Source of the DNA: Haliclona indistincta
Lineage: Eukaryota; Porifera; Demospongiae; Haplosclerida; Chalinidae
NCBI GenBank assembly: GCA_964017065.1
Contig: OZ024790.1
Location: forward strand, 12,039,498-12,103,497
Direction: 5' to 3'
DNA length: 64,000 nt
Shown here: positions 1,100-61,479 of the stretch, piece by piece
How positions within the stretch are numbered: position 1 is the stretch's first letter
How the letters are laid out: the number at the start of each line of letters is the position of its first letter
The notes under the pieces: generated by a model
Seen by the model: only the letters and a program-made list of their open reading frames with translations
Database searches by the model: none
Told to the model about the DNA's origin: nothing
Made by a program: the position numbers and the translations under genes

Positions 1100-7680
<6,581 letters not shown>

Positions 7681-20995: not shown

Positions 20996-21133
20996 AAGAA
21001 TTCAGTATGGAATTCTGGAATCGTTTTACCGTCAGCCTCTTGTTCCGTTACTTTGCAAGCGTCATCCCTACACTTTTCAGTTTTTATTAAAACGTTTTTT
21101 TATAGAATGTTTAGTGCTGGTTTATAATGATGT

Positions 21134-23872
21134 TTGTTGTTTCATGCAGGCATCAATAGATTATCAATCAGTACAATCACAGTCAGTCAGTCAGTCATTC
21201 AGTACCGAAATAGCCAAGCCTTTGTTCAACCCTACGGCAAAGATGTAAGATGCTCTTCTGCTCATATTGCAAAGCTTTCTGAGCATATTGAAGACTGGGA
21301 GGAACTGGCACCATATTTTGGCATTACCGAGGCAGAGCAGCAGGAGATACGAGCCAGCCACGCCGTCCAATACAAGGTACAGAAACGCAAGATGCTCTGG
21401 AAGTGGGTCAGGAAGCTGGGAGAGAAGGCAACCTACCGTGAGCTGATAAAAGTGTTGGAAGAAGCAGGCGAATCTCTACTAATTTCCAAAGTTAAAGAGC
21501 TACTTGAGAACTCATATTCTGAAGCACCTCACATCATTGTGAACTCGTTCCGACAGTACCTCAAAGATTGCTACAGCACCTCAGCTTCTGATGGAGTGGC
21601 AGATAGAGAAGATTGGCCGCGACTAAAACATCCAATGATTTATGTTAACCCTGAATTAGTTTCGAAGGACAAGAAGACAAGTCTAACTACACTCGACATT
21701 TTCAAAGACAAGAAAGTGATGCTTGAAGGCACATCAGGTTCCGGTAAGACCACTCTAATGAGGCATGCCTGCCAGCAGTGGGCCGAGGGCAAGCTACTTT
21801 ATGATGTGGATCTCCTCATCCATCTAACCCTGGCAGATCCCACCTTGTGGTCGGCCAAATGTTTGGAAGACATTATCCCTCATCCTACATCTGTTGAGAT
21901 GCGCAGAGCAGTAGCTGAGTACATAACAGAGCGAGGAGGCAAAGGATGCTGCTTTATACTGGATGGATGGGAGGATTTGCCCGAAGAGTTGCAAACGTCT
22001 TCTATTATTCATGATCTTCTCAAAGGCAGTCAGCCGGGATTGGCACTACCACAATGTTCGTTTGTTGTCACCACTCGTCCCATAGCTTCTCCCTCTCTAG
22101 AGCCACTAGTGACCACCATTGTTGAGATCACTGGCTTCTCATCTGAGAGTGTTGATACCTATGCTAGTCAGTATCTGACACAGCAAGGCAAGGACCCTGC
22201 TGTCTTCATAACAGCTCTCAATGATAACCATCATGCTCGTGGCTTGTGCAGTTTGCCCATCAATGCAGCCATCTTACTACATCTGTTTCTTACTATTCAA
22301 ACAGGTCTTCCCACTACTCAGACAGAGCTGTTCAACTGCTTTATTCTTAACCTCCTTCTTCGTCATCTTGTCGCCAAAGTGAAATACAAGCATACTAAGC
22401 CTTTGCTTCGCTGCTTTTCAGATCTTCCATCAAATGAATATAAAGCATTCAATAACCTTTGTCTAATATCTTACCATTCCACATTCAGTGGTAAAGTAGC
22501 CTCTCAGAGTAACCAGCTAATCTCATCTGATGACCTCCATAAAGCCGGTCTACAGGACGTGCAGGAGACCCTGGGTCTAATGAAGGTACACCAGCAGCTG
22601 ACCTGGTGTGGCTATGACCCTCACTATGGGTTCCTTCACTCATCAGTTCAAGACTTCTTATGTGCTGTGAGGATGAGCCAGCTGAGTCCAGAGCAACAGG
22701 TGAAGGACTTTATATGTATAATGACCAGTAATCCTACATCACTAGTACTTCGCTTCTATGCTGGCATAACAAAGCTTGAGAGTGAAAGGGTCTGCAAATA
22801 TTTGAGTCAAATAGGAATGAATCCACCTGGTGTTTTTGTTTTTAATAATCTGTGTGCTGCTCCTTCTGACCCACGTAGACTATTTTTGACATATCTGCAT
22901 TGTCTTTATGAAGCTAAGCATAACAAGATATTATGTCAGTTTGACAGTAAAGACTTAGTATGTTTTGAATTATTTAGACTTTCTATTCATGATCTCAACG
23001 TGATATGGTATTTCATGTTGGACATGATTGATAAATGTCATCCTGATCTTTTGACTGTTGCTTTCATTTTGTGCGAAATTAATGATCACAGCATTGAGTC
23101 AGCTGTAGCAACTTTTATCAACCAGGCAAACACTCTTACTTGCTCAAAAGGTTGTTTTAGACTTCACTTTAGAGATGATGGTATTACATATAATGGCGTT
23201 AGAAGTTTGACTAAATTAATGAAAATAAAATATGTACGTTTAACTCAGTTTCGCCTGACATCCAAAATTGACTTTATAACCTTGAATCTGTTAATTGGTG
23301 CTGTACCTACCTCAACTATAACATCTCTTGGTCTAATTTCACTTGGTTCGCCCTTGACAAGCAGACATATTTACCATTTAGTTCTTCTCATTCACCAAGC
23401 AAGACATTTGCAGGAGTTGAATCTTACTAACAATTCAATGCAAGCAGAGAGTTTTCCACTTCTATTAATTGCTGCTAGAAATTTGGAACGATTGGTATTT
23501 AGAAGTATGTTAACAGATCAGCACCTTCAGGAGATAGGTCCAATACTGCAGTCAAATACCAGTTTAAAGCTTTTATGTATAGAGCCTCTTCCACCCTTTA
23601 AACGCTGCTTTTACAGTTTTGAATCACTTTGTGAGTTCATTAAAGTTATCACAGCACCTGAATCAAGATCACAACTAAGGATTCTTGTTACTGAATATGC
23701 AGAAGATATCTATGCAAACAAAGAGTTAATGAAAACCGTATATAAATTTGTGGAACGTCGTGGATGTCCTTTAACTATTTCTACTGAGAATCAACAAACT
23801 GAAAGAAATTTAGTGATGGGTTGGAAAAATCTTCAATCTCTACCTGAATTTTTGGTCACAGGAAGAACGTAA
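21134..23872 (+). CDS. NLR-B: Death-NACHT-LRR receptor lacking its normal start
   Basis: The open frame carries all NLR modules: Death domain from DVRCSSAH, P-loop GTSGSGKT at 199-206 of this frame, FILDGWED, VTTRP, GFLHSSVQDF, LRR region, stop at 23872. The family start ATGGCC is ATAGCC here (21210-21215), and one base is missing in the following GGCACTAGACGT, so the usual N-terminal frame would stop after about 15 codons. The Death frame stays open upstream to about 21134 without an ATG. The next in-frame Met is in KRKMLWKW, inside the Death domain. No TATA segment remains upstream. Either it is read from an upstream exon or it is a recent pseudogene; the rest of the frame shows no decay. 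Confidence 0.75.
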   Translation: MLFHAGINRLSISTITVSQSVIQYRNSQAFVQPYGKDVRCSSAHIAKLSEHIEDWEELAPYFGITEAEQQEIRASHAVQYKVQKRKMLWKWVRKLGEKATYRELIKVLEEAGESLLISKVKELLENSYSEAPHIIVNSFRQYLKDCYSTSASDGVADREDWPRLKHPMIYVNPELVSKDKKTSLTTLDIFKDKKVMLEGTSGSGKTTLMRHACQQWAEGKLLYDVDLLIHLTLADPTLWSAKCLEDIIPHPTSVEMRRAVAEYITERGGKGCCFILDGWEDLPEELQTSSIIHDLLKGSQPGLALPQCSFVVTTRPIASPSLEPLVTTIVEITGFSSESVDTYASQYLTQQGKDPAVFITALNDNHHARGLCSLPINAAILLHLFLTIQTGLPTTQTELFNCFILNLLLRHLVAKVKYKHTKPLLRCFSDLPSNEYKAFNNLCLISYHSTFSGKVASQSNQLISSDDLHKAGLQDVQETLGLMKVHQQLTWCGYDPHYGFLHSSVQDFLCAVRMSQLSPEQQVKDFICIMTSNPTSLVLRFYAGITKLESERVCKYLSQIGMNPPGVFVFNNLCAAPSDPRRLFLTYLHCLYEAKHNKILCQFDSKDLVCFELFRLSIHDLNVIWYFMLDMIDKCHPDLLTVAFILCEINDHSIESAVATFINQANTLTCSKGCFRLHFRDDGITYNGVRSLTKLMKIKYVRLTQFRLTSKIDFITLNLLIGAVPTSTITSLGLISLGSPLTSRHIYHLVLLIHQARHLQELNLTNNSMQAESFPLLLIAARNLERLVFRSMLTDQHLQEIGPILQSNTSLKLLCIEPLPPFKRCFYSFESLCEFIKVITAPESRSQLRILVTEYAEDIYANKELMKTVYKFVERRGCPLTISTENQQTERNLVMGWKNLQSLPEFLVTGRT

Positions 23873-27890: not shown

Positions 27891-27990
27891 GTATTATTAT
27901 AATTATTATCAATTTTTTTATTATAATCTCTGGTAAAAAGAACAACACAAAATAACTTTCGTAGTAGTACGTCAGCCAGTCAGTACTAAA

Positions 27991-30606
27991 ATGGCCAAGC
28001 CTATGTTCAACTCTACGGCACTAGACGTAAGATGCTCTTCCGCTCATATTGCAAAGTTGTCTGAGCACATTGAAGACTGGGAGGAACTGGCACCATATTT
28101 TGGCCTTACCGAGGCAGAGCAGCAGGAGATACGAGCCAGCCACGCCCTTCAATACAAGGTACAGAAACGCAAGATGCTCTGGAAGTGGGTCAGGAAACTG
28201 GGAGAGAAGGCAACCTACGGTGAGCTGATAAAAGTGTTGGAAGAGCTACTTGAGGATTCATATTCTGAAGCACCTCACATCATTGTGAACTCGTTCCGAC
28301 AGTACCTCAAAGATTGCTACACCTCAGCTTCTGATGGAGTGGCAGATAGAGAAGATTGGCCGCGGCTACAACATCCAATGATTTTTGTGAACCCGGAGTT
28401 AGTCTTGAAGGATGAGAAAACTAGTCTAACTACACTCGACATTTTCAAAGACAAGAAAGTGATGCTTGAAGGCACATCAGGTTCTGGTAAGACCACTCTA
28501 ATGAGGCATGCCTGCCAGCAGTGGGCCGAGGGCAAGCTACTTAATGTTGTGGATCTCGTCATCCATCTAACCCTGGCAGATCCCACCTTGTGGTCGGCCA
28601 AATGTTTGGAAGACATTATCCCTCATCCTACATCTGTTGAGATGCGCAGAGCAGTAGCTGAGTACATAACAGAGCGAAGAGGCAAAGGATGCTGCTTTAT
28701 ACTGGATGGATGGGAGGATTTGCCTGAAGAGTTGCAAACATCTTTTATTCATGATCTTCTAAAAGGCAGTCAGCTGGGATTGGCACTACCACGATGTTCG
28801 TTTATTGTCACCACACGTCCCATAGCTTCTCCCTCCCTACAGTCACTAGTCACCACCATTGTTGAGATCACTGGCTTCTCATCTGAGAGTGTTGATACCT
28901 ATGCTAGTCAGTATCTGACACAGCAAGGCAAGGACCCTGCTGTCTTCATAACAGCTCTCAATGATAACCATCATGCTCGTGGCTTGTGCAGTTTGCCCAT
29001 CAATGCAGCCATCTTACTACATCTGTTCCTTACTATTCAAACAGGTCTTCCCACTACTCAGACAGAGCTGTTCAACTGCTTTATTCTTAACCTTCTTCTT
29101 CGTCATCTTGTCGCAAAATACAAGCTTGCTAAGCCTTTGCTTCGCAGCTTTTCATATCTTCCATCAAATGAAAATAAAGCATTCAATAACCTTTGTCTAA
29201 TATCTTACCATTCCACATTCAGTGGTAAAGTAGCCTCTCAGAGTAACCAGCTAATCTCATCTGATGACCTTCATAAAGCCGGTCTACAGGACGTGCAGGA
29301 GACCCTGGGTCTAATGAAGGTACACCAGCAGCTGACCTGGTGTGGCTATGACCCTCACTATGGGTTCCTTCACTCATCAGTTCAAGACTTCTTATGTGCT
29401 GTGAGGATGAGCCAGCTGAGTCCAGAGCAACAGGTGAAGGACTTTATATGTATAATGATCAGTAATCCAACATCACTAGTACTTCGCTTCTATGCTGGCA
29501 TAACAAAGCTTGAGAGTGATAGGGTCTGCAAATATTTGAGTCGAATAGGAATGAATCCACCTGGTTATTTTGTTTTTAATAACTTGTGTACTGCTTCTTC
29601 TGACCCACGTAGACTATTTTTGACATATCTACATTGTCTATATGAAGCGAAGCATAACAAGATATTATGTCAGTTTGACAGTAAAGCCTTGGTATGTTTT
29701 ATATGCTATAGACTTTCTATTCATGATCTCAACGTGATATGGTATTTCATGTTGGACATGATTGAAAAATGTCATCCTCAAGTTTTGCCTGTCATGTTCA
29801 ATGAGTGTGAAATTAATGATCACGGCATTGAGTCAGCTGTAACAACTTTTATCAACCAGGCAAACACTCTTAGTTGCTCAAAAGGTTGTTTTAGACTTCA
29901 ATTTAGTGATGCTGGTATTACATATAATGGTGTTAGAAGTTTGACTAAATTGATGAGAACAAAAAATGTAAGTTTAACTGAATTTGTGCTGCGATTGAAA
30001 ATTGACTTTATAACCTTGAATCTGTTAATTGGTGCTGTACCTACCTCAACTATAACAACTCTTAATCTATTGTCACGTGGCTCGTCCTTGACAAGCAGAC
30101 ATATTTACCATTTAGTTCTTCTCTTTTACCGAGCAAGACATTTGCAAAATTTGGATGTTTCTAGTAATTCAATGCAAGCAGAGACTTTTCCACTTCTATT
30201 GATGGCTGCTAGAAATGTTGAACAATTAGGATTTCAAACTATGTTAAGAGATCAGCACCTTCAGGTGATAGGTCCAATACTGCAGTCAAATACTAGTTTA
30301 AAGCGTTTGAATATAGAGAATAGTCATCCCTATAAGCGCTGTATTTACAGTTTTGAATCACTTTGTGAGTTCATTAAAGTTATCACAGCACCTGAATCAA
30401 GATCACAACTAAGGCTTCTTGGTACTGAATATGCAGAAGATATCTATGCAAACAAAGACTTAATGACAACCGTAAATAAATTTGGGCAACGTCGTGGATA
30501 TCCTTTAAATTTTTGTACTCAGAATCAGCAACTTAAAAGAATGGCAGTGATGGGTTGGAATAATATTCAATCTGTACCTGAATCTTTGGTCACAGGAAGA
30601 ACGTAA
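27991..30606 (+). CDS. NLR-C: Death-NACHT-LRR receptor
   Basis: 871-residue intron-less NLR starting ATGGCCAAGCCTATG. Death domain about 10-92, P-loop GTSGSGKT at 161-168, FILDGWEDLPEEL, FIVTTRP, WHD motif GFLHSSVQDF, then LRRs. Compared with its paralogues it lacks about 11 residues at the end of the Death domain (KVLEELLEDS instead of KVLEEAGESLL..VKELLEDS), one Ser in CYTSASDG, and two residues in the AKYKLAK segment; all keep the frame. The TATA promoter seen in blocks A and E is replaced by AT-rich retroelement flank. Probably translatable; expression uncertain. Confidence 0.88.
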   Translation: MAKPMFNSTALDVRCSSAHIAKLSEHIEDWEELAPYFGLTEAEQQEIRASHALQYKVQKRKMLWKWVRKLGEKATYGELIKVLEELLEDSYSEAPHIIVNSFRQYLKDCYTSASDGVADREDWPRLQHPMIFVNPELVLKDEKTSLTTLDIFKDKKVMLEGTSGSGKTTLMRHACQQWAEGKLLNVVDLVIHLTLADPTLWSAKCLEDIIPHPTSVEMRRAVAEYITERRGKGCCFILDGWEDLPEELQTSFIHDLLKGSQLGLALPRCSFIVTTRPIASPSLQSLVTTIVEITGFSSESVDTYASQYLTQQGKDPAVFITALNDNHHARGLCSLPINAAILLHLFLTIQTGLPTTQTELFNCFILNLLLRHLVAKYKLAKPLLRSFSYLPSNENKAFNNLCLISYHSTFSGKVASQSNQLISSDDLHKAGLQDVQETLGLMKVHQQLTWCGYDPHYGFLHSSVQDFLCAVRMSQLSPEQQVKDFICIMISNPTSLVLRFYAGITKLESDRVCKYLSRIGMNPPGYFVFNNLCTASSDPRRLFLTYLHCLYEAKHNKILCQFDSKALVCFICYRLSIHDLNVIWYFMLDMIEKCHPQVLPVMFNECEINDHGIESAVTTFINQANTLSCSKGCFRLQFSDAGITYNGVRSLTKLMRTKNVSLTEFVLRLKIDFITLNLLIGAVPTSTITTLNLLSRGSSLTSRHIYHLVLLFYRARHLQNLDVSSNSMQAETFPLLLMAARNVEQLGFQTMLRDQHLQVIGPILQSNTSLKRLNIENSHPYKRCIYSFESLCEFIKVITAPESRSQLRLLGTEYAEDIYANKDLMTTVNKFGQRRGYPLNFCTQNQQLKRMAVMGWNNIQSVPESLVTGRT

Positions 30607-34299: not shown

Positions 34300-34690
34300 A
34301 AAACAACATGGATTGGTGTAATGAAATCGATGACTCGATGATTGGTGTAATGAAATCGATGACTCGATGATTGGTATGATCAAACCAATCGGTGATTGGT
34401 GTGATCGAATTGATGAATTCATCTACAATTTACCAGTACATTAGACCAGCTGTGAGGGGTGAGCTACATTGAACCAGTACATTAGACCAGTGAGGAGTGA
34501 GCTACATTGAACCAGTACATTAGACCAGTGAGGGGTGAGCTACATTGAACCAGTAGATTAGACCAGTGAGGGGGGGAGCTACATTGAACCAGTACATTAG
34601 ACCAGTGAGGGTGAGCTACATTGAACCAGTACATTAGACCAGTGAGGGGTGAGCTACATTGAACCAGTACATTAGGATTTTAGAAGTTGT
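34300..34690. repeat. Two adjacent minisatellites (29 bp and 37 bp units)
   Basis: 34305-34422: three to four copies of GATTGGTGTAATGAAATCGA plus TGACTCGAT. 34430-34680: about seven copies of a 36-38 base unit containing GAACCAGTACATTAGACCAG and TGAGGGGTGAGCTACATT. They lie just upstream of the block D fusion gene promoter. Confidence 0.9.
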
Positions 34691-34894: not shown

Positions 34895-37800
34895 ATGTCT
34901 GACCGTGAGTTTTCAGAGCATTCACAAAGCTCCAAACACTTAGTGTTCTTGATGTGCAGGTACTCCTACACTTCAACAGCTGTTGAAGGCACTGAAGACT
35001 TTGGAGAATTGGTTTGTTTTTGGTGTGAAGCTAGGCGTGCCTTTCTCTAAACTGAAGGAGATCGAGTCACTATACGGCCAGAAGGACTTGGAACGATGCA
35101 AGACAGAAATGTTGCAGTACTGGCTTGACAACAAGTTGGTCCCTAAGTGGAATGCGGTGATAGTAGCAGTAAAGGAAACTGACCAACTAGCCCTCGCTGC
35201 TCAGATCAAACATGACTATCTGTTGTCTACAGAATCAGATGTCAGGAAAGAACAAGGTATGTTGTGAAAATTATACATCAGAAACACTGATTATCCTTCT
35301 TCAGCTATCACACCATCAACTCTTTCTGGTTCTGCTTCTCTGATTACAACTCCTCCTCTCACTGCTGCTGATGAGATTAAAGCTAAGATCAGAGCTGATG
35401 TGGCTGTAGTTAGCAATCTGAAGGATTTGGAAGTTTCGTTTGGTAGTATGATCGTGAGAGTGAAACGCCATCTTGAAAAGTGCGACTTGTCTGAAGCAAA
35501 ATTATTTCTGTATTCAGTTATCGGTACTAAAGTCTTTAAGAGGTGCGAAAATTTCGGAGAAATTTTAGAACTGTTACAGCAAGACCACATTGATGTCTTC
35601 AATATTTCTATTCTTCAACAGCTTGTGGAATGCTTTGACAACTGTGAACAAACTGAAGTAATCAAGACATATAACGAAAAGAAAGAGAAGTTTTTTCAAC
35701 AGACGACAGTTCTTGAATTCCAACGTGCTGTTGTCAGCAGAGTGGAGCCTATTCTAGCTAGTGGAAGAGCTTTGGTAACCATTGTAATATCAAGAGAAAA
35801 GGCTTACGACCGAACTCTCAAGGACATTGAGAAACTGGCAATGGAAGGATTTGAGGAATGTCACAAGGAGTTCGTCCATCTGCATGCTGAGCCAGGCTCC
35901 ATAATCATATCCTGGATCTTTCCCAAGAGGAAAAGTGGCAGATTAGAGCAACTAGCATGTAAAAACTCCACTGTTTTTGAGCACGCCGGAGTTCTTGAGG
36001 TGACAGTAGGAGAAAGGAGAGTATTTCCATGCACTCATCAAGATGTCAAAGAGGAGGAGAAAAGCAAGCTAAAGCAACTCTACATAGAGTTCTACCCTCA
36101 GCTGGTTGAAGCAGTCTCTGATCGTGACACATGTCACTCTCTCACTACTCAGCTCCATTCCAAAAGTCTGTTATCAGAGGAGAAGAAAGCGTCTCTGAGC
36201 TCCAGCATGGCGGCTAGTGGTAGGTTGTACCTGAAGGCATTGGGAGTGGAAGAAGAGCCTCACCTAGTGACTGTGCTGATGGAGAAGATGTCAGCAGTTA
36301 AACAGCTGCAGACACTATCAGAAGATATGAATGCCTGGATGAGTGGATCAAAGCAAGGTACCATGATGCACATGTTAAGGATAATTAGTGGTGCTTGCAA
36401 CTAATTAATATTCACGGCGCTGCGCGTTGCTGTGTTTCTGGAAAACTAAAGAAGCAGACAGAGTGATATTAGCAGTGTAGCATGCAAGCTACTCATATCG
36501 TGAAATATAACGGGCTGGCTTGCTCGCAAAAGAACAAAGAGATGTGGTCGTGTGTAAGAAGACGTCCAGATCCAGCGTGTGATGGCGAAGTTCTATGCCA
36601 AAATGCGTTTTGGCAAGGGCAGCACCATTGTAAAGTTTCTATTGGCTGTGGTTTGTCCTGTAAACAGTTGCTATGTCAGCAACCACACAATAATTATATT
36701 CATAGCAGCTGGCGGGATACCAGAATTAATAACTTTCATTAGTTTGCAAGTAGCTGCATTTTTCTAGCCATGGGTATTCGTGCAGACGGAGTTGTTGCAT
36801 GCATTTTGCTTGCCTATCGATAGGTATCAAATATAGCAATTTTCAGCAATGCAGTGTTAGCCATTGCGGAGCTACGAGCTCGCCCTGTGAAGACTAAGCA
36901 CGATCGATTTTAAACACTTTTTCTTTATTTGTGTAAAAGGTAGGAAGCTAAAACTGCTCAAGCATGCTCATCTGCCATCTGTGCAGGAATAAATGCAATG
37001 TTTTCGCCGAGTGCTGCTCGTACGCAATATTACAGCTATGTGTTGCCAGACAGCACAGCCTTGCATTGCTGTAATATCGCGCACGAGCTGTGCTCGCCGA
37101 AAACATCGCATTTATTCCTGCACAGATGGCAGATGAGCATGCTCGAGCAGTTTTAGCTTCGCACCTCTTGCACAACTAAGGATAAGTGTTTAAAATCGAT
37201 TGTGCTTAGTCTTCACAGTGCGAGTTCGTTGCTCCACGATGGCTAACACTGCATTGCTGAAAATTGCTATATTCGATACCTATCGATAGGCAAGCAAACT
37301 ACATACAGCAAATCTGTCTGCACGAACACCCATGGCTAGAAAAATACAGCTACTTGCAAAAGTCATGAATATCATTAATTCTGGTGCCCACCACCTTAAG
37401 GGTGCTCTCTCGTCATTAATATTCATCGGGTGGTCGGTGCTTGTGAATGTCCGTATGCGGTTGTGAATATCAGCACACGGTTGTGAATATCATTTCGCAC
37501 TTTGTAGTCTGCCGTACTTTGTGTACGTGCCGGGAAAGCACCAAACAGTATAAAACTCGAGCATGAGAACGTTTATACAGCGCCAAGATCATCAGCTACA
37601 CGTGGCCAACACTGTAACGGAGAGTTTTTGAATTGCGTACTCAACAGCCAAGATAAGTTACGTAAGTACTGTTTGTCGCTGCTGTACTGCCAAAACCTCT
37701 GCTACTGGATTCCTCGGGTCTAGATAGCCACAGAAACATGGTTTCAGCAACCTGGCACGCTCTGCTGAAAGTTTTTCAGATGAGTAGGCGTGGTTTTGTG

Positions 37801-40800
37801 GCGCCTCTGGCGGTCCTTCCCGGTAAGCTGTCTCGCTAAAACTTGGTATACAAGCAATACTTCCAGTCGTGTTGTTATGCAGCTAGCGATGCGTTCGTAG
37901 CTGCTTTAAATCTGACCCATAGCAACCGCGCCGCCTTGTGAATATTAATAATGACCAAGCACCCTTAAAGGCGTACTTGACAGCAGCTATGATTTACAGA
38001 GCAGCTTGAACATAGAAAATTTAATGACAATTGGCATGTTTGCATTTTGTAGTTAACTAAAATAATGGACAATTAGGTATTGACTATTCTAAAACACCTC
38101 TCTCTCTCTCTGCAGGTTCTATCGAGTCAATCACATTTCTCACACAACAAGCAAATGCTCATGGAATGGCTGTCACAAAGGAAGGTCACCTCATTATGGC
38201 TGATTGGTCAAAGCGTGGTATGACCATCATCAATATGACCATCATAAGTGGAGAGGTGATTAGAAGCTTTGGAGGATTTGGGTCAGGACAGACAGAATTT
38301 GATCATGCAGAAGGAGTGGCATTGACACAAGATGGCCAAGTCGTTGTAGCTGATTCTTCCAATCATCGTTTACAAGTGTTAACAGTAGAGGGAGCCTTTG
38401 TAGCTGCTGTTGGCTCCAGAGGATCTCAGCCGCTGCAATTTCAGTATCCACATGATATAGCTGTTGATCGTAATGGAAGATTATTTGTTACTGAGCTTTG
38501 GAATCATCGTGTCCAGGTCCTTAATTCTGACCTGAGCTTTTCGCATTGTTTTGGCAGTGAAGGAGACAAGCCTGGGCAACTGTATAGTCCACGTGGGATT
38601 GCTATTGATCAAGATGGAATGGTGTATGTCAGTGACTTTGGCAACCACCGAATTCAAAAGTTTGCACCGAGTGGTTTCTTTTTGGCTTCTTTCGATCATA
38701 AGAAGTTGCGTCATTCATTTAGTCCGTATGGCTTGTGCTTTGACAGCAAAAATCTACTCTATGCTACTGATATGCAGAACAGTGTAGTGTGTGTCTTCAA
38801 TACTAGTGGGAAGTTTCTAGGATACATTGGTAATAGTGATGGTAGTAGTTTTAATCATCCTCGATTCATAGTTTCTGATAAAGACAGACTGTACATTAGT
38901 GATGACAATGGAGTGGTAACTAACAAGTGCTTCCAGCAGGCACTAGACGTCAGTACAAAAATGGCCAAATCTTTGTTCAACCCTACGGCACTAGACGTAA
39001 GATGCTCTTCTGCTCACATCGCAAAGTTGTCTGAGCATATTGAAGACTGGGAGGAACTGGCACCATATTTTGGTCTTACCGAGGCAGAGCAGCAGGAGAT
39101 ACGAACCATCCACGCCCTCCAATACAAGGTACAGAAACGCAAGATGCTCTGGAAGTGGGTCAGGAAGCTGGGAGAGAAGGCAACCTACCGTGAGCTGATA
39201 AAAGTGTTGAAAGAAGCAGGCGAATCTCTACTAATTCCCAGAGTTAAAGAGCTGCTTGAGGACTCATTTTCTGAAGCTCCTCACATCATTGTGAACTCGT
39301 TCCGACAGTACCTCAAAGATTGCTACAGTACCTCAGCTTCTGATGGAGTGCAAAATTGGCCACGACTTAAAAAGCCAATGATCTTTGTGAACCCGGAGTT
39401 AGTCTCGAAGGACAAGAAGGCAAGTCTAACTACACTCGACATCTTCAGAGACAAGAAAGTGATGCTTGAAGGAACATCAGGTTCTGGTAAGACCACTCTA
39501 ATGAGGCATGCCTGCCAGCAGTGGGCCGAGGGCAAGCTACTTAATGATGTGGATCTTCTCATCCATCTAACCCTGGCAGATCCCACCTTGTGGTCTGCCA
39601 AATGTTTGGAAGACATTATCCCTCATCCTACATCTATCGAGATGCGCAGTGTAGTAGCTGAGTACATAACAGAGCGAGGAGGCAAAGGATGCTGCTTTAT
39701 ACTGGATGGATGGGAGGATTTGCCTGAAGAGTTGCAAACGTCTTCTATTATTCATGATCTTCTCAAAGGCAGTCGGCCGGGATTGGCACTACCACGATGT
39801 TCGTTTATTGTCACCACTCGTCCCATAGCTTCTCCCTCCCTACAGCCACTAGTCACCACCATTGTTGAGATCACTGGCTTCTCATCTGAGAGTGTTGATA
39901 CCTATGCTAGTCAGTATCTGACACAGCAGCAAGGCAAGGACCCTGCTGTCTTCATAACAGCTCTCAATGATAACCATCATGCTCGTGGCTTGTGCAGTTT
40001 GCCCATCAATGCAGCCATCTTACTACATCTGTTTCTTACTATTCAAACAGGTCTTCCCACTACTCAGACAGAGCTGTTCAACTGCTTTATTCTTAACCTT
40101 CTTCTTCGTCATCTTGTCGCCAAAGCGAAATACAAGCATGCTAAGCCTTTACTTCGCTGCTTTTCAGATCTTCCATCAAATGAGTATAAAGCATTCAATA
40201 ACCTTTGTCTACTATCTTACCATTCCACATTCAGTGGTAAAGTAGCCTCTCAGAGTAACCAGCTAATCTCGTCTGATGACCTTCATAAAGCCGGTCTACA
40301 GGACGTGCAGGAGACCCTGGGTCTAATGAAGGTACACCAGCAGCTGACCTGGTGTGGCTATGACCCTCACTATGGGTTCCTTCACTCATCAGTTCAAGAC
40401 TTCTTATGTGCTGTGAGGATGAGCCAACTGAGTCCAGAGCAACAGGTGAAGGACTTTATATATATAATGACCAGTAATCCTACATCACTAGTACTTCGCT
40501 TCTATGCTGGCATAACAAAGCTTGAGAGTGTAAGAGTCTGCAAATATTTGTGTCAAATAGGAATTAATCCACCTGGTGCTTTTGTTTTTAATGACTTGTG
40601 TACTGCTTCTTCTGACCCACGTAGACTATTTTTGACATATCTTCATTGTCTTTATGAAGCAAAGCATAACAAGATATTATGTCAGTTTGACAGTAAAAAC
40701 TTAGTATGTTTTTTATACTATAGACTTTCTATTCATGATCTCAACGTGATATGGTATTTCATGTTGGACATGATTGAAAAATGTCATCCTGAAGTTTTGG

Positions 40801-41627
40801 AGGTTATTTTCATGAGGTCTGAAATTAATGATCATGGCATTGAGTCAGCTGTAAAAACTTTTATTAACCAGGCAAACACTCTTAATTGCTCAAAAGGTTG
40901 TTTTAGACTTCAATTTAGTGATGCTGGTATTACACATAATGGCGTTAGAAGCTTGACTAAATTGATGAGAACAAAAAATGTAAGTTTAATTGAATTTGCG
41001 CTGCAATCGAAAATTGACTTTATAACCTTGAATCTGTTAATTGGTGCTGTACCTACCTCAAGTATAACATCTCTTAGTCTAAAGTCACTTGGCTCGCCCT
41101 TGACAAGCAGACATATTTACCATTTAGTTCTTCTCATTCACCAAGCAAGACATTTGCAAAAGTTGGATCTTAAAGATAATCCAATGCAAGCAGAGAGTTT
41201 TCCACTTCTATTGATGGCTGCTAGAAATGTGGAACAATTAATTCTTAGATCTATATTAAGAAACGAGCACCTTCAGGAGATAGGTCCAATACTGCAGTCA
41301 AATACTAGTTTAATATTTTTGGATATAGAGATTGAACTTACCTACATGCATATACGCTACTGCTTTTACAGTTTTGAATCACTTTGCAAGTTCATTAAAG
41401 TTATCACAGCACCTGAATCAAGATCACAACTAAGACTTCTTGTTACTGAATATGCAGAAGATATCTATGCAAACAAAGAGTTAATGACAACCGTAATTAA
41501 ATTTGTGGAACGTCGTGGATATCCTTTAACTTTTTATAGTAAGAATCAACAAGGTGAAAGTGAAGTAGCGATGAACTTGATGAAACTTATGTCTCTACCT
41601 GAATCTTTGATCACAGGAAGAACGTAA
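34895..41627 (+). CDS. NHL-NLR fusion: Death, DED-like, CARD-like, six NHL repeats, Death-NACHT-LRR
   Basis: Four exons with matching phases: 34895-34904 (MSDR), 34960-35256, 35305-36357, 38116-41627; about 1623 residues. Domains: Death about 10-95 (ENWFVFGVKLGVPF), helical DED-like about 145-235, beta-rich segment about 236-345 (GSIIISWIFPKR), CARD-like helical region about 352-450, six NHL blades about 455-728 (VYVSDFGNHRIQKFA, VVVADSSNHRLQVL), then a complete NLR from the internal Met at about 736: Death, P-loop GTSGSGKT about 906-913, Walker B, VTTRP, WHD FLHSSVQDF, LRRs. In blocks A and E the NHL frame ends KxFQQ stop and a TATA promoter precedes the NLR; here FQQ continues as ALDVSTKMAKSLF. 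Intron 3 is 1758 bases and full of transposons. Presumed cytosolic immune or stress sensor. The long last exon is certain as a single frame; the splicing is inferred but phase-consistent. Confidence 0.85.
36386..36705. other. Intron sequence with remnant inverted end of a TTAA element
   Basis: GGTGCTTGCAACTAATTAATATTCAC at 36391 (in two parts: GGTGCTTG, TTAATATTCACGGCG) resembles the complement of the end at 37964. This suggests an older, larger element of the same family spanning 36386-37964, into which the foldback 36706-37395 was inserted. No gene. Confidence 0.4.
36706..37395. mobile_element. Second copy of the TTAA palindromic foldback family
   Basis: About 690 bases forming an imperfect palindrome centred near 37045. 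The arm sequence (GGCGGGATACC; AAGACTAAGCACGATCG; GCAGTTTTAGCTTCG) is clearly the same family as 12963-13631 but more diverged. TTAA is present at the right boundary (37396-37399) and degenerate at the left. Confidence 0.78.
37400..37964. mobile_element. 565-bp TTAA-flanked MITE
   Basis: TTAA at 37396-37399 and 37965-37968. Ends GGGTGCTCTCTCGTCATTAA and the near-complement with TTAATAATGACCAAGCACCC. No transposase. It shares its left TTAA with the right end of the neighbouring foldback. Confidence 0.8.
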
Positions 41628-41684
41628 CTTCTGATTGCCAACAACTCATTCATAATAATTTTTAATAGTACTCGTAGTATAATC

Positions 41685-42270: not shown

Positions 42271-44269
42271 AAACATGTCACAAGTTATAGAAATAAGTAT
42301 TGTCATGATCGTAACTTCTGATTGCCAACAACTCATTCATAATAATTTTTAATTGGAAGTATAACATGTCACAAGTTATAGAAATAATTATTGTCATTGT
42401 TGGTTTGAAAAATAAATATTAATACCAGTAGCATGATCAATACATAACCAGTAGTAGTTAAAGCTACTACTATGGTAACCCACATACCATTTTCAGTTTC
42501 TTGCCATAAAAATTAATGCTGACACATAAAAATTGAAAACATCATGAACATGTTTTCATTGCTACAAAAATTCAATCGTCAACAATGTTCAATTCACTGC
42601 GTAGAAGTGGATCTCTTTCATTATGTCGAGCTTCATCAGGTTGAGGTTCTTTATGGAAATGTTCGATGATAACAAATAAAGAGTATACTACAGCACATGA
42701 CAAGCTATTGAGAGGAGCAATTGCTGCATGAATGAACAGCCTTCACGAAACCCTCGGCGTGTTGCACATTGCAGAGTTAGCTCTTTAGTTAGCTTTGCAG
42801 CTAAAGCCAACCTGCTTGCTATTGAAACTGCACTGCTAACCAGAAGACAGCGAAGTGCTGACCACAACCGAGACAAGGTGTGTCAAGTGGGCGTGACCGT
42901 GAACACTGAGTAGGTAGCCATTGCTCTTGGCTTTGATAGGCTCTTTATTGAGATGTCTACGCACCCCCAGAGCTGTCCTGCTGTTTAGATGGAATCTACA
43001 AGTACCTAGATAGTCAACTATGGGTGCGTTTGTAGTCAGAGAGGTCCAAGATGGCTGTCAAGGTGAGCCAGCCATACATAACTCGAGAACGAAAGCACTT
43101 TAGCAAAATCCACGAGTCACATTGCAAGCCATTGTCATGCTAAGCCTGTTCATACCTTTACCGAGTTTCAGAAGTGAGCGATGGTCTCTGCAGCTCGTTG
43201 GACAGAATGAACGAACGAACGAATGAACAGACTTCACGAAACCCTCGGCGGGTTGCACATTGTAGAGTTAGCTCCTTAGTTATGGTTTGCAGAAGGAGCT
43301 TTGCAGCTAAAAGCAAACCTGCTTGCTATTGAAATTGCACTGCTAACCAGAAGACAGCAAAGTGCTGACCACAAGGACAAGGTGTGTCAAGTGGGCGTGA
43401 CCGTGAACACTGAGTAGGTAGCCATTGCTCTTGGCCTTGATAGGCTTTTTCTTGAGATGTCTACGCACCCCCAGAGCTGTCTTGCAGTTTAGATGGAATC
43501 TACAAGTACCTAGGTAGTCAACTATGGGCGCTTTTGTCGTCAGAGAGGTCAAAGACGGCCAACCGTCAAGGTGAGCCAGCCATAACTCGAGAACAAAAGC
43601 ACTTTAGCAAAATCCACGAGTCACATTGCAAGCCATTGTCGAGCTTGTCATGCTCATAACCTTACCAGCGCGTAGAAATGATCGCTGATCTCTGCAGCTC
43701 GATGGACAGAACGAACGAACGAAGAACAGATTTCACGAAACCCTCGGCGTGTTGCACGTTGTAGAGTTAGTTCCTTAGTTATGGTTTGCAGAAGGAGCTT
43801 TGCAGCTAAAGCCAACCTGCTTGCTATTGAAACTGCACTGCTAGCCAGAAGACAGCAAAGTGCTGACCACAACCGAGACAAGGTGTGTCAAGTGGGCGTG
43901 ACCGTGAACACTGAGTACGAGTAGGTAGCCATTGCTCTTGGCTTTGATAGGCTTTTTCTTGAGATGTCTACGCACCCCCAGAGCTGTCCTGCTGTTTAGA
44001 TGGAATCTACAAGTACCGAGATAGTCAACTATGGGCGCGTTTGTAGTCAGAGAGGTCCAAGACGGCCGTCAAGGTGAGCCAGCCATACATAACTCGAGAA
44101 CGAAAGCACTTTAGCAAAATCCACGAGTCACATTGCAAGCCATTGTCATGCTAAGCCTGTTTATACCTTGACCGAGTTTCAGAAGTGAGCGATGGTCTCT
44201 GCAGCTCATTGGACAGAATGAATGAACGAATGACAAACTGAGTACCGTAACCCTCGCGCATGCGCCGAG

Positions 44270-44324
<55 letters not shown>

Positions 44325-46190
44325 CTATAATAATTTGCATATAGCAGGATACCAAAATAGCAAAAATGCTAATCATAAATAGTACCCTATAAGTTATATA
44401 TTAGATGAGCCACAGTTTTTTTAAAGGAAAAAAGAGTACAACTCTCCCGAATGTCCACAGGAAGATTGTTCCACAAGGCAATGGAAGATGGGAAAAAGGA
44501 GGAGTCGTACGAAGTAGAATGAGCTGTGGGCCTGGTCAGTAACTGACTTGAATTTCTAAGGATTCTAGGCAGCGATCTTGCATGGACAGGTGCATCAGGC
44601 ATAATGATAAGACCTTTGTTAATCTTGAAAAGAGTGGTTAGCTTCAGGTACTGACGCCTCTGCGCAAGAGAAGGAACTTGGCATACATGAAGGAGATCAA
44701 CATAGTTGGCCTTCCATTGTTTTGTAACAGCCTTGAGTGCAAATTTTTGAACACTTTCTAGCTTGTTAATAAGATTTATCTGATGAGGGTCCCACACAAC
44801 TGCCGCATATTCAAGGTGAGGTCGCACATGAGATAGGTAGAGAGTCAAGAAAGTATCGCAACCAGCGTAACTGTAGAGTGATCTGTAAAGGAAACCAATT
44901 TGCCGCCTAGCTTTCATACAAATGTCATCAATTTGCAAAGACCAACTCAGAGACGAGGTTATCCAAACGCCCAGATATTTGTATGAGTCAACTTTGTCTA
45001 AGGGAGAGCTGTCAACAACAATAGGAGAGGATGGCAAGGTGGGAGAACGCTTTCTGGAGATGATCATGAATTTGCTTTTTTTTGAATTAAATTTTAAAAA
45101 ATTATCATTAGTCCAGACGCACAAACGATCAACATCATTTTGAAGAGAAGCGAAGTCAGCACAGGAGTTAATCTGGCAGTATAACATCATATCGTCTGCA
45201 TAGAGTGATAAAATACCTGATGTGAGAGGCAACCGAGTAATATCGTTTATATAAAAGTTAAAAAGAAGCGGACCCAACACAGATCCCTGAGGAACTCCAG
45301 ATAGAACATGCCGAAGTTGAGAGGTGACACCACTAACACACACAGCTTGCATTCTGTTCAATAGATACGAAGCTATCCACTTGAGAATATATGGACTAAC
45401 ATTAACAGCACTCAGTTTGTCAAGAAGAGGTCTATGAGGCACGGAGTCAAAGGCCTTACTATAATCAAAAAATACAGTACAAATCTCACGACCAGAGTCA
45501 AGTACTCGGTGCCATTGATCCGTGACAGCCAAAAGTGCCCCAGTAGTGGATTTGCCACTTGTGAAACCCCACTGCATATCACTGAGGGGAGAACAAAGAT
45601 CAAAATGATCAAGCAAAACATTTTTGATATGAGTTTCAAGGAGCTTGCTAAGCACAGACAACAGAGAAATGGGTCGAAACTTTGCCGGATCAGAAGAAAC
45701 GACACCTTTGGGAATAGGAGCCACCCGAGCCATCTTCCAATCATGAGGGAGTTCACCAAGACTGATTGAGATGTTAAACAATTGTGTTACAACAGCTGAA
45801 ATGCTAACAGCAGTCATCTTGAGCATCATGGCAGAGATATCATCAGCTCCACTAGCTTTGTTACAGTCTAAGGTGCTAAGGAGCATAAAAACTTCTTCTT
45901 CAGAACACAAGAGCTCATCAGGACAATCACCAGACAATGCTGAAGGTATATCTGACTGATCAAGAACAGGTACAGCTAGATTAAAATTTTTAATGAAACA
46001 GTCATTTAGAAGCTCAGCTTTGTCCAGATTAGTAGAGGCAGTAATATCTCCACAAAATAAAGTTGGAATTGAATTCTCCTTGTGATTAAGCAAACGAATT
46101 TTTTTCCAGAACTCATTCACACCAGCAGACTCTAGATCAGCAAAGAAAGACTTCTTTTCAGCTCTCAGTTTAGCAATGAATGGGTTAATG
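44270..46190 (-). mobile_element. Non-LTR retrotransposon with near-intact RT, inserted in the array
   Basis: The minus-strand frame 44387-46201 (604 codons) contains the RT series: FWKKIRLLNHKE, KASGADDISAMMLK, RPISLLSVLSKLLE, FFDYSKAFDSVPH, LSGVPQGSVLGPLLFNFYI, LSLYADDMMLY, KYLGVWITSSLSWS, RPHLEYAAVVWDP, ALWNNLPVDIRESC. Both catalytic Asp in YADD and the Asp in FFDYSKAFD are present. The 3' end is a long poly(A) (T-run 44271-44324 on plus). The apurinic-type endonuclease and ORF1 are missing, so it is 5'-truncated. It is the youngest-looking retroelement in the window. CR1/L2/jockey-like by motifs. Confidence 0.9.
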
Positions 46191-49100
46191 AATGAACGCA
46201 TTTCACAAACCCTCGGCGTCTACGCTCCATAGACCATATAGTTGGGGATTGCAGCAGGAGTTTACCACTAGTGCCAACCTGCAGCTTAGCTTATAGGCTG
46301 TAGCTATATTATAACTGCACTGCTAACTAGTTATGGCTTTCAGAAGGAGCTTTGCAGGCTTGCAGCTAAAGACAACCTGCTTGCAGCTAAAGACAACCTG
46401 CTTACTATTGAAACTGTACTGGTAAACAGAAGACAGCAAAGTGCTGACCACAAGGACAAGGTGTGCCAAGTGGGCGTGACCGTGAACACGAGTAGGTAGC
46501 CATTGCTCTTGGCTTTGATAGGCTTTTTCTTGAGATGTCTACGCACTCCCAGAGCTATCCTACAGTTTAGATGGAATCTACAAGTACCTAGGTAGTCAAC
46601 TATGGGCGCTTTTGTCGTCAGAGAGGTCAAAGACGGCCGTCAAGGTGACTGACTGAGCCAGCCATAACTCGAGAACGAAAGCACTTTAGCAAAATCCACG
46701 AGTCAGATTGCAAGCCATTGTCATGCTAAGCCTGTTCGTACCTTTACCGAGTTTCAGAAGTGAGCGATGGTCTCTGCAGCTCATTGGACAGACAGAATGA
46801 ACGAACGAATGAACAGATTTCACGAAACCCTCGGCGTGTTGCACATTGTAGAGTTAGCACCTTAGTTATGGTTTGCAGAAGGAGCTTTGCAGCTGAAGCC
46901 AACCTGCTTCCTTTTGAAACTGCACTGCTCATGTAACCAGAAGACAGCAAAGTGCTGACCACAATTCAATCGAGACAAGGTGTGTCAAGTGGGCGTGACC
47001 GTGAACACTGAGTAGGTAGCCATTGCTCTTGGCTTTGATAGGCTTTTTCTTGAGATGTCTACGCACCCCCAGAGCTGTCCTGCTGTTTAGATGGAATCTA
47101 CAAGTACCTAGGTAGTCAACTATGGGCGCCTTTGTTGTCAGAGAAGTCTAAGATGGCCGTCATGCAAGGTGAGCCAGCCATAACTCAAGAACGAAAGCAC
47201 TTTAGCAAAATCCACGAGTCACATTGCAAGCCATGGTCGTGCTTAGCCTGTTCATACCTTAGTTGACGCGTAGAAGCGATCGCCGATCTCTGTAGCAGAA
47301 GAGACAGACAGACAGACAGACCGACCGAACGACAAAGCAAGTACCGTAACCCTCGCGCATGCGCCGAGGGTTAATGAACGAACGAAACATTGTAGAGTTA
47401 GCTCCTTAGTTATGGTTTGCAGAAGGAGCTTTGCAGCTAAAAGCAAACCTGCTTGCTATTGAAATTGCACTGCTAACCAGAAGACAGCAAAGTGCTGACC
47501 ACAAGGACAAGGTGTGTCAAGTGGGCGTGACCGTGAACACTGAGTAGGTAGCCATTGCTCTTGGCCTTGATAGGCTTTTTCTTGAGATGTCTACGCACCC
47601 CCAGAGCTGTCTTGCAGTTTAGATGGAATCTACAAGTACCTAGGTAGTCAACTATGGGCGCTTTTGTCGTCAGAGAGGTCAAAGACGGCCAACCGTCAAG
47701 GTGAGCCAGCCATAACTCGAGAACAAAAGCACTTTAGCAAAATCCACGAGTCACATTGCAAGCCATTGTCGAGCTTGTCATGCTCATAACCTTACCAGCG
47801 CGTAGAAATGATCGCTGATCTCTGCAGCTCGATGGACAGAACGAACGAACGAATGAACAGATTTCACGAAACCCTCGGCGTGTTGCACATTGTAGAGTTA
47901 GCTCCTTAGTTATGGTTTGCAGAAGGAGCTTTGCAGCTAAAGCCAACCTGCTTGCTATTGAAACTGCACTGCTAACCAGAAGACAGCAAAGTGCTGACCA
48001 CAATCGAGACAAGGTGTGTCAAGTGGGCGTGACCGTGAACACGAGTAGCTTGGTAGCCATTGCTCTTGGCTTTGATAGGCTTTTTCTTGAGATGTCTACG
48101 CACCCCCAGAGCTGTCCTAAGGTTTAGATGGAATCTACAAGTACCTAGGTAGCCAAATATGGGCGCTTTTGCCGTCAGAGAGGTCAAAGACGGCCAACCG
48201 TCAAGGTGAGCCAGCCATAACTCGAGAACGAAAGCACTTTAGCAAAATCCACGAGTCACATTGCAAGCCATGGTCATGCTTAGCCTGTTCATACCTTAGT
48301 TGACGCGTAGAAGCGATCGCTGATCTCTGTAGCAGAAGAGACAGACCGACCGAACGACAAAGCAAGTACCGTAACCCTCGCGCATGCGCCGAGGGTTAAT
48401 GAGTGAACGAACGACAAACCAAGTACCGTAACCCTCGCGCATATGCGCCGAGGGTTAATGAATGAACAGATTTCACGAAACCCTCGGCGTGTTGCACATT
48501 GTAGAGTTAGCACCTTAGTTATGGTTTGCAGAAGGAGCTTTGCAGCTGAAGCCAACCTGCTTGCTATTGAAACTGCACTGCTACATGTAACCAGAAGACA
48601 GCAAAGTGCTGACCACAATTCAATCGAGACAAGGTGTGTCAAGTGGGCGTGACCGTGAACACTGAGTAGGTAGCCATTGCTCTTGGCTTTGATAGGCTTT
48701 TTCTTGAGATGTCTACGCACCCCCAGAGCTGTCCTGCTGTTTAGATGGAATCTACAAGTACCTAGGTAGTCAACTATGGGCGCCTTTGTTGTCAGAGAAG
48801 TCTAAGATGGCCGTCATGCAAGGTGAGCCAGCCATAACTCAAGAACGAAAGCACTTTAGCAAAATCCACGAGTCACATTGCAAGCCATGGTCGTGCTTAG
48901 CCTGTTCATACCTTAGTTGACGCGTAGAAGCGATCGCTGATCTCTGTAGCAGAAGAGACAGACAGACAGACCGACCGAACGACAAAGCAAGTACCGTAAC
49001 CCTCGCGCATGCGCCGAGGGTTAATGAACAGATTTCACGAAACCCTCGGCGTGTTGCACATTGTAGAGGTAGCTCCTCAGTTATATAGTTTGCAGAAGGA

Positions 49101-52390: not shown

Positions 52391-53262
52391 TTTTTTTTTT
52401 CATTTCAAAAAGAAATGTGAAATAGCAATAATGCTAATGAATGAAGGTGTTAGTGATCTAAAAGGTAGTAAATAGCTTGGACTTAAATAGAGAAAAAGAA
52501 TCAGTAGATTTGATACAAGAGGGAAGAGAGTTCCAGAGCTTGATAGAGGTGGGATAAAATGAATTCATATAAGTAGCTGATTTGCAGAAGATGGGGGCAA
52601 AATCATGTCTATTATAATTGCGGGAGAAATGCAGAGGCGGGGAAGGTGATATGAGAGGACAATTGATTGAATGAGAAAAACCAAATTTGAGTTTGAACAG
52701 AGAGGAAGTTTTGCAAATTTTTCTTCTCTGTTCAAGAGGCTTTATAGCTCAAGAGGCTTTATAGCAAATTGGGAAAGAAGAGATGGAAAGCTGGAAGCGC
52801 ACGATTTAGATGCCATTTTTAAAGCAAAATGTTGAACAGATTCAAGAGATGAGATTGCAGTTAGTGAAGGTGGATCCCAGATAGCAGCACCGTACTCCAA
52901 GATTGGGCGAACCAACATTTTGTATAGAGTAAGTAGAGTAGATGAGGGGCAGTGGTGGTAAAAATGCCTGTAGATTAGCCCAAGGCGTTTCCTTGCTTTC
53001 ATTCTAATATTATGAATGTGAGAAGGCCATGACAAATTGGGCTGAAAGGTTAGCCCAAGGTATTTGTAGGAGTAGACTCTATCAAGAGGGATATTGCTGA
53101 TTTGCACAGGGGGTAGTGAGTCAAAAAATGACTGTGGACGAAGTGAAAAAATCATGAATTTTGATTTTTGTAAGTTGATGTTAAGTGATCTAGAGGAGAG
53201 CCAGCAGTGAATATCAGAGAGCAATGAATTGATAGTGGCAATATCAGCAGTATAGTATGATT
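52391..53262 (-). mobile_element. 5'-truncated non-LTR retrotransposon in the receptor remnant
   Basis: Minus strand: LNINLQKSKFMIF, DRVYSYKYLGLTFQPNLSWP, MKARKRLGLIYRHF, LVRPILEYGAAIWDPPSL, ESVQHFALKMASKS, stop near 52742, then a degenerate tail ending in an A-run (T-run on plus at 52391). Only the last third of the RT remains. A 16-base tandem duplication (AAGAGGCTTTATAGC) lies at 52734-52764. Different subfamily from the elements at 12536 and 44270. Confidence 0.8.
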
Positions 53263-55733
53263 GCATTGGTCGAATCTCAATGTAGTAGACTCGCTCAGTC
53301 TCTATGAAGGCGTGGCTCAATAGTAGCTCCACCCACTTTGTCGCCACGAGGGAAAGGCGGACACTGCAGGCACAGAAAGAGATCGTTTGGGTTTGGTGGG
53401 TTAGCAGCTCGCGTGTTGGTAGGCGTGAGACAATTTTTGGTCTCTAGGAGAATGAAAACGAGAGGAAGCGAAAAAGAGCGCTCGAGGATGGAGGAGAAGA
53501 TGGCGGAGCCCCGAAACAGAAGCTGCCCAACTACAGCACTTTTGCAGAGAGAATGATGGTAGGTGACACGCCCCTTTGACGTAAGTACTAGCAACAGCTG
53601 TGATATTGCTATCACGGCAACTAGACAGCATATTTATAGTGATGTTCATTGTTTAGGCATCAATGGGTTATGTTCCTTGTAAAGGTCTTGGAAAGACTGA
53701 GTCCGGCATCTCTGAACCGATACATCAATCCATGCACAAGGGTAGGCGTGGTCTGGGGCACATGATCGCAAAACTGAAGCAAGAGGACGTCCAGTGGGAG
53801 CTGGAAGAGGTAAGAGAGAGTAAGAGTGAGAGCTGGAGAGAGAGGGAGAGAGGGCTAAGTGTAATGCGTGAATCAGTAGTGCGTACTTGATGTCACTGCA
53901 ATAAAATCAAGATAAGCTGTTCACATCTGTTCAATAACAAACCCTTTTTATGTACGGGTCCTTGCAAAGAGGTGTTTGTGAGTGAGAGAAATAGACCATT
54001 TTTCTTGCCAAAGTCTGCACAATTTCGTGTCTGTGATGCTGTGTATGATTCTTACAGGTTAACTGTGATCAAGAAGTGACCTGGCTTGCTCCTTGCCATC
54101 ATCCTGTACTCACAGCTAATGAAATGACTGACTGGATTGTCACAGATGAGGTTATAAACTAAACTATTCTTCTCTTTAGCAATAGTCTAACAGACTGAGT
54201 CTGACCTTTGGTTGTCTGATATAGAGAAAAGATACAATTGAAGATGAAACTAAGTTCTGTGATCCTGTTGTGCTGGAAGGTATTCTTGCTGCTAAAGTAA
54301 GCACTCACTCACTCTCTCATGTACTTGGACACAATTCACATGAATCTGTTTCGTTTAGACTGTTTTTGATTCACTCGATAGAAAAGAGTTTGCCGATGCC
54401 CGTCATAGATCTAATCCTTTCGAGACCATCAAAGGAGTCATCTTTCAAAATAGGTAACCACATGTATACGGTGCTAGCTTGAAGCCATTGTGTGTGTCAT
54501 TTGTATCTTTTAAGAGCTGCAATGAAGATGGCGAACATTGATTCTGTGTTTGACTTCATGTTCACATCACCAAAAGAGAAGGTCAGCATCATTCTGTATT
54601 TAGTGATAGTAGGTTTCTAGTTTAACCCTGTATGCATGGTTCAACATGATAATTCTTTGAAGAATAAACATAAAATATCCAATGACTGGATTATGATAGG
54701 ATCATAGAACAATTGCCTGGACAGATTTATACATGTAACATTATTTTCAGCTCTGCTCGTTCATTTTGTAAAATGTCACAGACTGATGTGTTGTATTTTG
54801 CCGATATCTGTGCTGGGCCTGGAGGATTTTCAGAGTACGTGTTCTGGAAAAAGAAATGGCATGCTAAAGGATTTGAGTTCACCTTGAAAGGTAGAGAGAC
54901 CACTGTTATCTAGACTGAGCCATGTTTGTGATCTCTGTACAGACCCCAATGATGCATCTGATTTTCAGCTGGACAAATTTCTAGCTGGACCATGTGAAAC
55001 CTTCGATCCTTTCTATGGTAATGGCAACTTTGGTCTCACTTTTTACCCATGCGCATACTGCGCACAGGTAATAAAAGAGTATTATTTTCCATTAAAGCAA
55101 CAGCTATTCATAAAAAAAATGATTTTGGTGTTTTCATAAAAATTCTTCCACAAACATGTCATGCTATACATGTACAGTATGTTTGAATTATGAGATCTTG
55201 TTTGTTGTGATACAGGTGTTGGTGGTTATGATGGAGATGGTGACATAACCAAGACAGATAATTTACTAGAACTTCAAGAGTATGTGATGGATCAGACAGA
55301 AGGTGTTCATTTTGTGATGGCTGATGGTGTAAGTCCTGTGTGAGTCTATAATGTGTAATAATGTGTGCCACAGGGGATTTGTGTTGACGGAGAGGAAAAT
55401 ATTCAAGAAATTCTGACGAAACAGTTGGTTCTCTGTCAGTACCTTTGTGCTCTTATGATTTTGAGAACAGGTGATAGCACATTGTTACAGATAATTGTGT
55501 TGTGACCTTTTGTACTCCAGGTGGTCATTTTGTCTGCACTGTATTCGACCAGTTTACTCCATTCAGTGTGGGCCTGTTCTACCTGCTCTACCGGTGCTTT
55601 GAACAGGTCTGCATCTTCAAACCAGTGACCAGCCGTCCAGCTAATTCCGAGAGGCAAGTCATGCACTCTTGCACACACTGTGCCGAGTTTGAGTTCCCTC
55701 CCTTCCCCCTCTCTTTCTCTCCTTCTCTTCCTC

Positions 55734-55740
<7 letters not shown>

Positions 55741-55808
<68 letters not shown>

Positions 55809-56030
55809 TCCCTCTCCCTCTCCCTCTCCCTCTCCCTCTCCCTCTCCCTCTCCCTCTCCCTCTCCCTCTCCCTCTCCCTCTCCCTCTCCCTCTCCCTCTC
55901 CCTCTCCCTCTCCCTCTCCCTCTCCCTCTCCCTCTCCCTCTCCCTCTCCCTCTCCCTCTCCCTCTCCCTCTCCCTCTCCCTCTCCCTCTCCCTCTCCCCC
56001 TCCCTCCCTCCCTCCCTCCCTCCCTCTCTC
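55741..56030. repeat. CT and CCCTCT microsatellite in CMTR1 intron
   Basis: (CT)n at 55741-55803 then a very regular (CCCTCT)n to about 55995 and a (CCCT)n tail. Same intron as 3650-3998 in block A, but there the hexamer is TTTCTC, so each copy has expanded independently. It produces spurious Leu/Pro/Ser and Arg/Glu frames. Confidence 0.95.
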
Positions 56031-61410: not shown

Positions 61411-61479
61411 CTGGCTATAAATGTCGGTACACTATAAGCGTCTTGACCTGCCTCCCGTGACCCGTGATTCAGTACAGAA
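61411..61479 (+). promoter_or_regulatory. TATA promoter of NLR-E
   Basis: CTGGCTATAAATGTCG with TATAAA at 61416-61421, 59 bases before the ATG, equivalent to the duplicated segment at 9390-9508. Confidence 0.5.

Follow-up and report, generated by a model that had tools for sequence, protein, structure and literature searches.

The question raised by this locus is whether a long reading frame in the sponge Haliclona indistincta encodes one receptor, with an NHL propeller in front of a complete NLR, or two products. The frame belongs to a gene predicted at positions 34895-41627 of the window, the 64,000-nucleotide stretch of contig OZ024790.1 that was analyzed. The gene has 4 exons and encodes 1623 residues in a single reading frame, with the domain order Death, DED, an RRM/ACT-like domain, a six-bladed NHL propeller, Death, NACHT, and LRR. 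On the evidence of the sequence, two known gene families have truly been fused here, in several copies, into an architecture that we have not found described. We hold with reasonable confidence that the gene is a chimera, one part from an adaptor family and the other from an NLR family, that it most likely yields a single protein, and that its propeller is under constraint.

The gene lies on the forward strand. Exon 1 (34895-34904) contains the start codon (ATGTCTGACC), and an identical exon and donor were found at 8/8 related loci. Exon 2 (34960-35256) encodes a Death-like domain, matched by Pfam Death at approximately 34971-35132 (E = 0.0013, short of the Pfam cut-off). Exon 3 (35305-36357) encodes a DED (35430-35678), the RRM/ACT-like alpha/beta domain (35751-36014), and a helical tail (36036-36344). 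The frame of exon 4 (38116-41627) begins at the splice acceptor and runs through NHL, Death, NACHT, and LRR without interruption to a stop codon at 41625-41627. The propeller (38160-38930) was found by Pfam and by a structure model with Foldseek. The second Death domain (39015-39236; Pfam Death, 2.5e-11) stands immediately ahead of NACHT (39459-39926; Pfam NACHT, 1.2e-20), which carries the Walker A motif GTSGSGKTT. The LRR region (40701-41537) was assigned from the structure model only, by its strand-helix alternation and Foldseek matches to NLRP3 and NOD2; the Pfam search of the exon 4 frame gave no LRR match. The gene thus has the N-terminal death fold, the NACHT with Walker A, and, by fold, the C-terminal LRR of an NLR. 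A sequence-only reading of this stretch had proposed one frame from NHL into NLR, three upstream exons joined to the last, two sets of death-fold domains, and a complete propeller. Each of these proposals held: exon 4 is open from end to end and its joint is shared by further copies, the exon borders are conserved, Death and DED precede the propeller with a second Death ahead of NACHT, and all six blades were recovered. An intron of 21 bp or 38 bp (GTAAC...CAG) where the NHL part ends was considered and rejected, since the same bases are coding, ahead of the stop, in unfused copies.

Repeats were also seen in and around the gene. In intron 3 (36358-38115), nested inverted repeats make up a fold-back element at 36743-37360, whose arms (36743-36925/37178-37360 and 36919-37040/37064-37185) are 183 and 122 nt long with 91% and 87% complementarity. 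A minisatellite with units of approximately 38 bp (34419-34675) lies directly upstream of the gene. A 47-bp repeat, 98% identical, occurs at 41620-41666 and 42307-42353, and its first copy sits on the gene's stop codon.

The window is part of a tandem array on C8, between 11.89 and 12.25 Mb, in which 26 or more substantial NLR copies were counted; all or part of five of these falls inside the window. An NHL remnant, most often broken, precedes many of these copies. The 5' regions of 23 NLR starts were compared (22 of the 26 copies and one fragment); 20 were unfused and three were fused, namely the gene of the window (copy A), L002 (copy B), and L003 (copy C). An NHL end with a CAGCAG/CAGCAA-TAA stop was readable in 9/20 unfused copies. 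The distance from this stop to the NLR start was 137-195 bp in eight of them and 346 bp in L005, which carries an insertion. In the remaining unfused copies, the NHL end was altered, farther off, or absent within the 420 bp examined. Copy D (L026) shows the unfused arrangement, with exons 1-3, an NHL exon with a stop, and then an open NLR frame.

In copy A, the fusion joint (38939/38940) falls right after CAGCAG, where unfused copies carry the stop codon, and the predicted protein sequence across it is VVTNKCFQQALDV. A genome-wide search for the NHL-end pattern, with one mismatch allowed, found 18 stop-type ends (14 on C8, 3 on C5, and 1 on C38) versus 4 fused ends, and all 4/4 fused ends were joined immediately after CAGCAG. 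Three of these stop-free joins (A, B, and C) continue into a full NLR. The other is copy F (L032, reverse strand, approximately 0.5 Mb outside the array), which has stop codons right after the second Death domain and is therefore a fused form with NHL and a lone Death domain, without NACHT. An 11-bp direct repeat, GCACTAGACGT, is present twice in A and B, 48 bp apart, with the native NLR start codon in between (in A, at 38940-38950 and 38988-38998, with the start codon at 38961-38963). Copy C lacks this 48-bp unit, which is what a deletion between the two repeats would be expected to leave. The joints between QQ and RCSS/ICSP are 20, 4, 5, and 6 codons long, the last two being those of F and the protein relative P0002, and they consist of whole codons throughout. 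The chance of three free length changes all staying in frame is approximately 1/27.

Relatives of the protein were sought on other public contigs, and the best 120 of 1063 matches were examined. NHL and NACHT occurred together in three of them. P0003 equals copy B at 99.5% up to its early end and probably comes from the same species in a different assembly. P0001, which is also cut short, is 96% like B and carries Leu at the position of the NLR Met. P0002 matches A at 88%, reaches the same C-terminus, and probably shares a contig with P0123, a relative of exon 3. No more distant protein with both NHL and NACHT was among the 120 matches listed. Within the genome, no NHL near a NACHT was seen by eye outside the C8 array in a comparison of 150 NHL matches, fragments included, with the 102 scored of 631 NACHT candidates; these lists are lower bounds, and the NACHT list lacks most copies of the C8 array.

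The fusion also removed sequence ahead of the NLR. In a raw count, TATAA was found within 110 bp of the NLR start in 14/20 unfused versus 0/3 fused copies, and a GTGAATCTCAT-like upstream motif in 16/20 versus 0/3. In the copies at 21.1 and 27.9 kb of the window, the TATAA lies, by eye, in sequence other than the common spacer. Since the deleted interval carries TATAA in most unfused copies, the fusion probably swapped out the NLR promoter as well.

Selection was assessed from the ratio of nonsynonymous (dN) to synonymous (dS) divergence. The NHL parts of A and C gave dN 0.055 and dS 0.207, a ratio of 0.26 (bootstrap 0.16-0.41). The ratio was 0.29 for B-C (0.18-0.47) and 0.34 for both A-F and C-F, and A and B had too few differences for a ratio. 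Comparison of A with the broken L013 and L017 gave 0.58 and 0.61. The propeller was apparently kept by selection in the fused copies. For the receptor end, the median dN/dS among unfused copies was 0.34 for NACHT pairs and 0.94 for LRR pairs; the pooled ratio was 1.3 for the strands predicted in the LRR, taken together with two flanking residues, versus 0.79 for the rest of the LRR. A and B are approximately 99% identical in Death and NACHT, and their LRRs differ by a dN of 0.16, as much as those of A and C. This suggests that the fused front is retained while the receptor end is exchanged or evolves quickly. A conserved propeller with diversifying LRR strands fits a constant platform or bait combined with a variable LRR sensor.

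Several points weigh against a single fused protein maintained by selection. The NLR start codon is retained in A (AAAAATGG) and B (AAACATGG), which makes a second product possible in these copies; translation of the NLR could then still start at its native ATG (38961) by way of a cryptic promoter, with the fused frame being incidental. Also, unfused copy D has the GTGAATCTCAT-like motif but no TATAA within 110 bp, and the TATAA count is a raw tally. However, the TATAA-bearing interval has been lost, all 4/4 joint lengths are in frame, and the start codon is missing from C and P0002 and changed to Leu in P0001, so that any upstream start in those three comes only from the fused frame. We consider two products unlikely.

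Another possible explanation is that the gene is a decaying hybrid without function, in which recent duplicates of a chance fusion are still unbroken. The many broken NHL remnants of the array are in keeping with this, as is the truncation of F, P0001, and P0003, the latter two stopping early relative to A or B. A separate point against the main reading is that the NHL ratio is also below 1 for the unfused D (A-D, 0.44) and the broken G (A-G, 0.47), so that part of the constraint may be older than the fusion. Decay is nevertheless quite improbable given the purifying selection on NHL between A/B and C at a dS of approximately 0.2 and three genomic copies with uninterrupted frames of 1154-1188 codons.

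It is very unlikely that exon 4 is a separate NHL-NLR gene and that exons 1-3 belong to another transcript. The exons 2-3 nearest to copy C are 15 kb upstream of its NHL exon, behind retroelement debris, and one of these matches has a stop codon. On the other hand, exon 3 is only 1.4-2.4 kb from the NHL exon in A, B, and D, several C5 relatives of exon 3 are likewise followed, on the same strand, by an NHL exon a few kb on, and the exon 4 frame opens with a splice acceptor. An assembly collapse at 38939-38960, suggested by the 48-bp direct repeat structure and named in the sequence-only reading as a threat to the fusion, is extremely unlikely because copy B and frames from other public contigs have the same joint.

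The last point that weighs against our reading concerns the number of fusion events. In the NHL tree, the stop-ended D and the broken G fall next to C and F, a placement that is moderately supported (89/86). A single origin is thus unproven, and a second origin or a later exchange of the NHL end is possible. A clean single-origin tree was not obtained, as the forks of the NHL tree are weak and the NLR copies look recombined. Across the ten pairs that A, C, D, F, and G form, identity is 99-100% over NHL codons 211-245 and 82-99% over codons 246-281, which hints at exchange in the region of the latter. The shared joint favors one fusion origin.

For a chimera made as one protein, the following route can be proposed. 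An ancestral pair would have consisted of a Death-DED-(RRM/ACT-like)-NHL adaptor gene and, right behind it, a Death-NACHT-LRR gene. A family of exon 3 and NHL relatives, whose NHL exons mostly end at or near a stop codon, was seen on C5 at 8.1-9.8 Mb, and it is the likely source family of the adaptor. A short deletion appears to have taken the adaptor's stop codon together with the stretch in which the NLR promoter probably lay, leaving at the joint an 11-nt copy of nearby sequence of the kind that templated end-joining can produce. Expression of the fused gene would then be driven by the adaptor promoter. Copies of the fused exon probably then multiplied by duplication, with LRR parts being swapped or diverging fast. 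If the biochemistry of the families applies, the product would be a single-chain receptor in which the LRR is the variable sensor, NACHT an ATP-driven switch, and the propeller a constant binding platform or bait. The two death-fold sets would bring in downstream death-fold partners with no need for a separate adaptor. Taken to its full extent, one deletion would have created a natural single-chain immune complex, with a variable sensor, a switch, a propeller, and two death-fold recruiting units, in which the NLR is under the adaptor promoter and the front serves as a chassis for swapping in neighboring LRRs. We put this forward tentatively, as somewhat doubtful in its entirety.

TRIM-NHL proteins (TRIM2, TRIM3, TRIM71, Thin, and Brat) share the six-bladed NHL fold with copy A, but the partner domains of the propeller in copy A are death folds and an NLR. 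A search of the exon 4 frame and of exons 2 and 3 with E up to 1 gave no RING or B-box match, and neither did one of the joined exons 1-3 with E up to 10. In plants, some members of NLR clades have an unrelated binding domain joined to the receptor. In contrast to these integrated-domain NLRs, copy A has a whole adaptor gene in front, and a bait relation would be by analogy; the genome has 150 NHL matches, fragments included, that the propeller could mimic. The integrated-domain idea, well worked out in plants, would become testable in a probably early animal lineage, and the propeller is conserved here in the same chain in which the LRR diversifies. Unfused and fused copies side by side give a base-level view, before and after, of an animal NLR gaining a domain set, and the lost stop codon and probable promoter are visible in the comparison.

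The sequence-only reading had also stated that no NLR with an NHL propeller has been described. Nothing in the open-licence papers searched contradicted this, and no NHL-NACHT protein was described in them; most subscription papers and all supplements lay outside the search. In the parts covered, PMC3386278, PMC11639872, PMC6208332, and PMC12909245 contain no such protein. For Halichondria panicea, however, a receptor figure legend lists NHL among the domains (PMC8242945), without the parts covered showing which protein carries it. For Dysidea avara, NACHT-WD40, NACHT-TPR, and sushi-NACHT are listed, and NHL is absent from the main text (PMC12909245). The sponge NACHT-LRR receptors of Dysidea avara and Amphimedon, as far as these parts of the sources go (PMC12909245; PMC6208332), resemble copy A in being of the Death-NACHT-LRR type and in forming large families, some clustered. 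The fused copies differ from them in standing behind a Death-DED-NHL adaptor, in the probable loss of the promoter, and, for some, in the loss of the native start.

The CARD-like domain that the sequence-only reading had placed in exon 3 was not upheld. The model and search gave a DED and the alpha/beta domain instead, a result that leaves aside the last helices (244-346). The alpha/beta domain has an RRM/ACT-like fold, with only a middling Z, and is a candidate TRADD-N domain. The NCOA6_TRADD-N profile matched 1/44 relatives, at 0.051. A genome search with PF13820 gave 0 matches, but its controls gave none either. Exon 3 had no family match in NCBIfam and no phmmer match among PDB sequences at E up to 5. 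In the parts covered, Kaur et al. 2021 (PMC8195603) report 357 NCOA6-clade TRADD-N proteins in Amphimedon, most consisting of death-like domains, TRADD-N, and variable C-termini that include ankyrin, SH3-LRR, kinase, caspase, and others. Like copy A, these proteins form a large sponge family with N-terminal death-like domains, and their plan fits copy A if the alpha/beta domain is TRADD-N. The same paper names STAND NTPases and propellers for bivalves and discusses gene fusions; the word NHL is absent from its main text, and its section 10 does not mention an NHL propeller leading into an entire NLR.

The other NLR copies of the window are unfused and on the forward strand. They lie at 9497-12160, behind a broken NHL remnant (8870-9313); at 21131-23872, with the start codon changed to ATA; at 27937-30606; and at 61468-63999, where the copy is truncated by the window end and is preceded by a broken NHL remnant with a terminal stop codon (60846-61342). 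On the minus strand, the frames at 31-930 and 14249-14839 are related and, by eye, look like pieces of a seven-helix receptor, which suggests a duplicated block. Reverse-transcriptase-like frames, also identified by eye, are present on the same strand at 44387-46219 and 52742-53443. Repeated units of approximately 520 bp occur between 42791 and 51815, and a stretch with long CT microsatellites and near-identical flanks is found at both 3427-4180 and 55436-56125.
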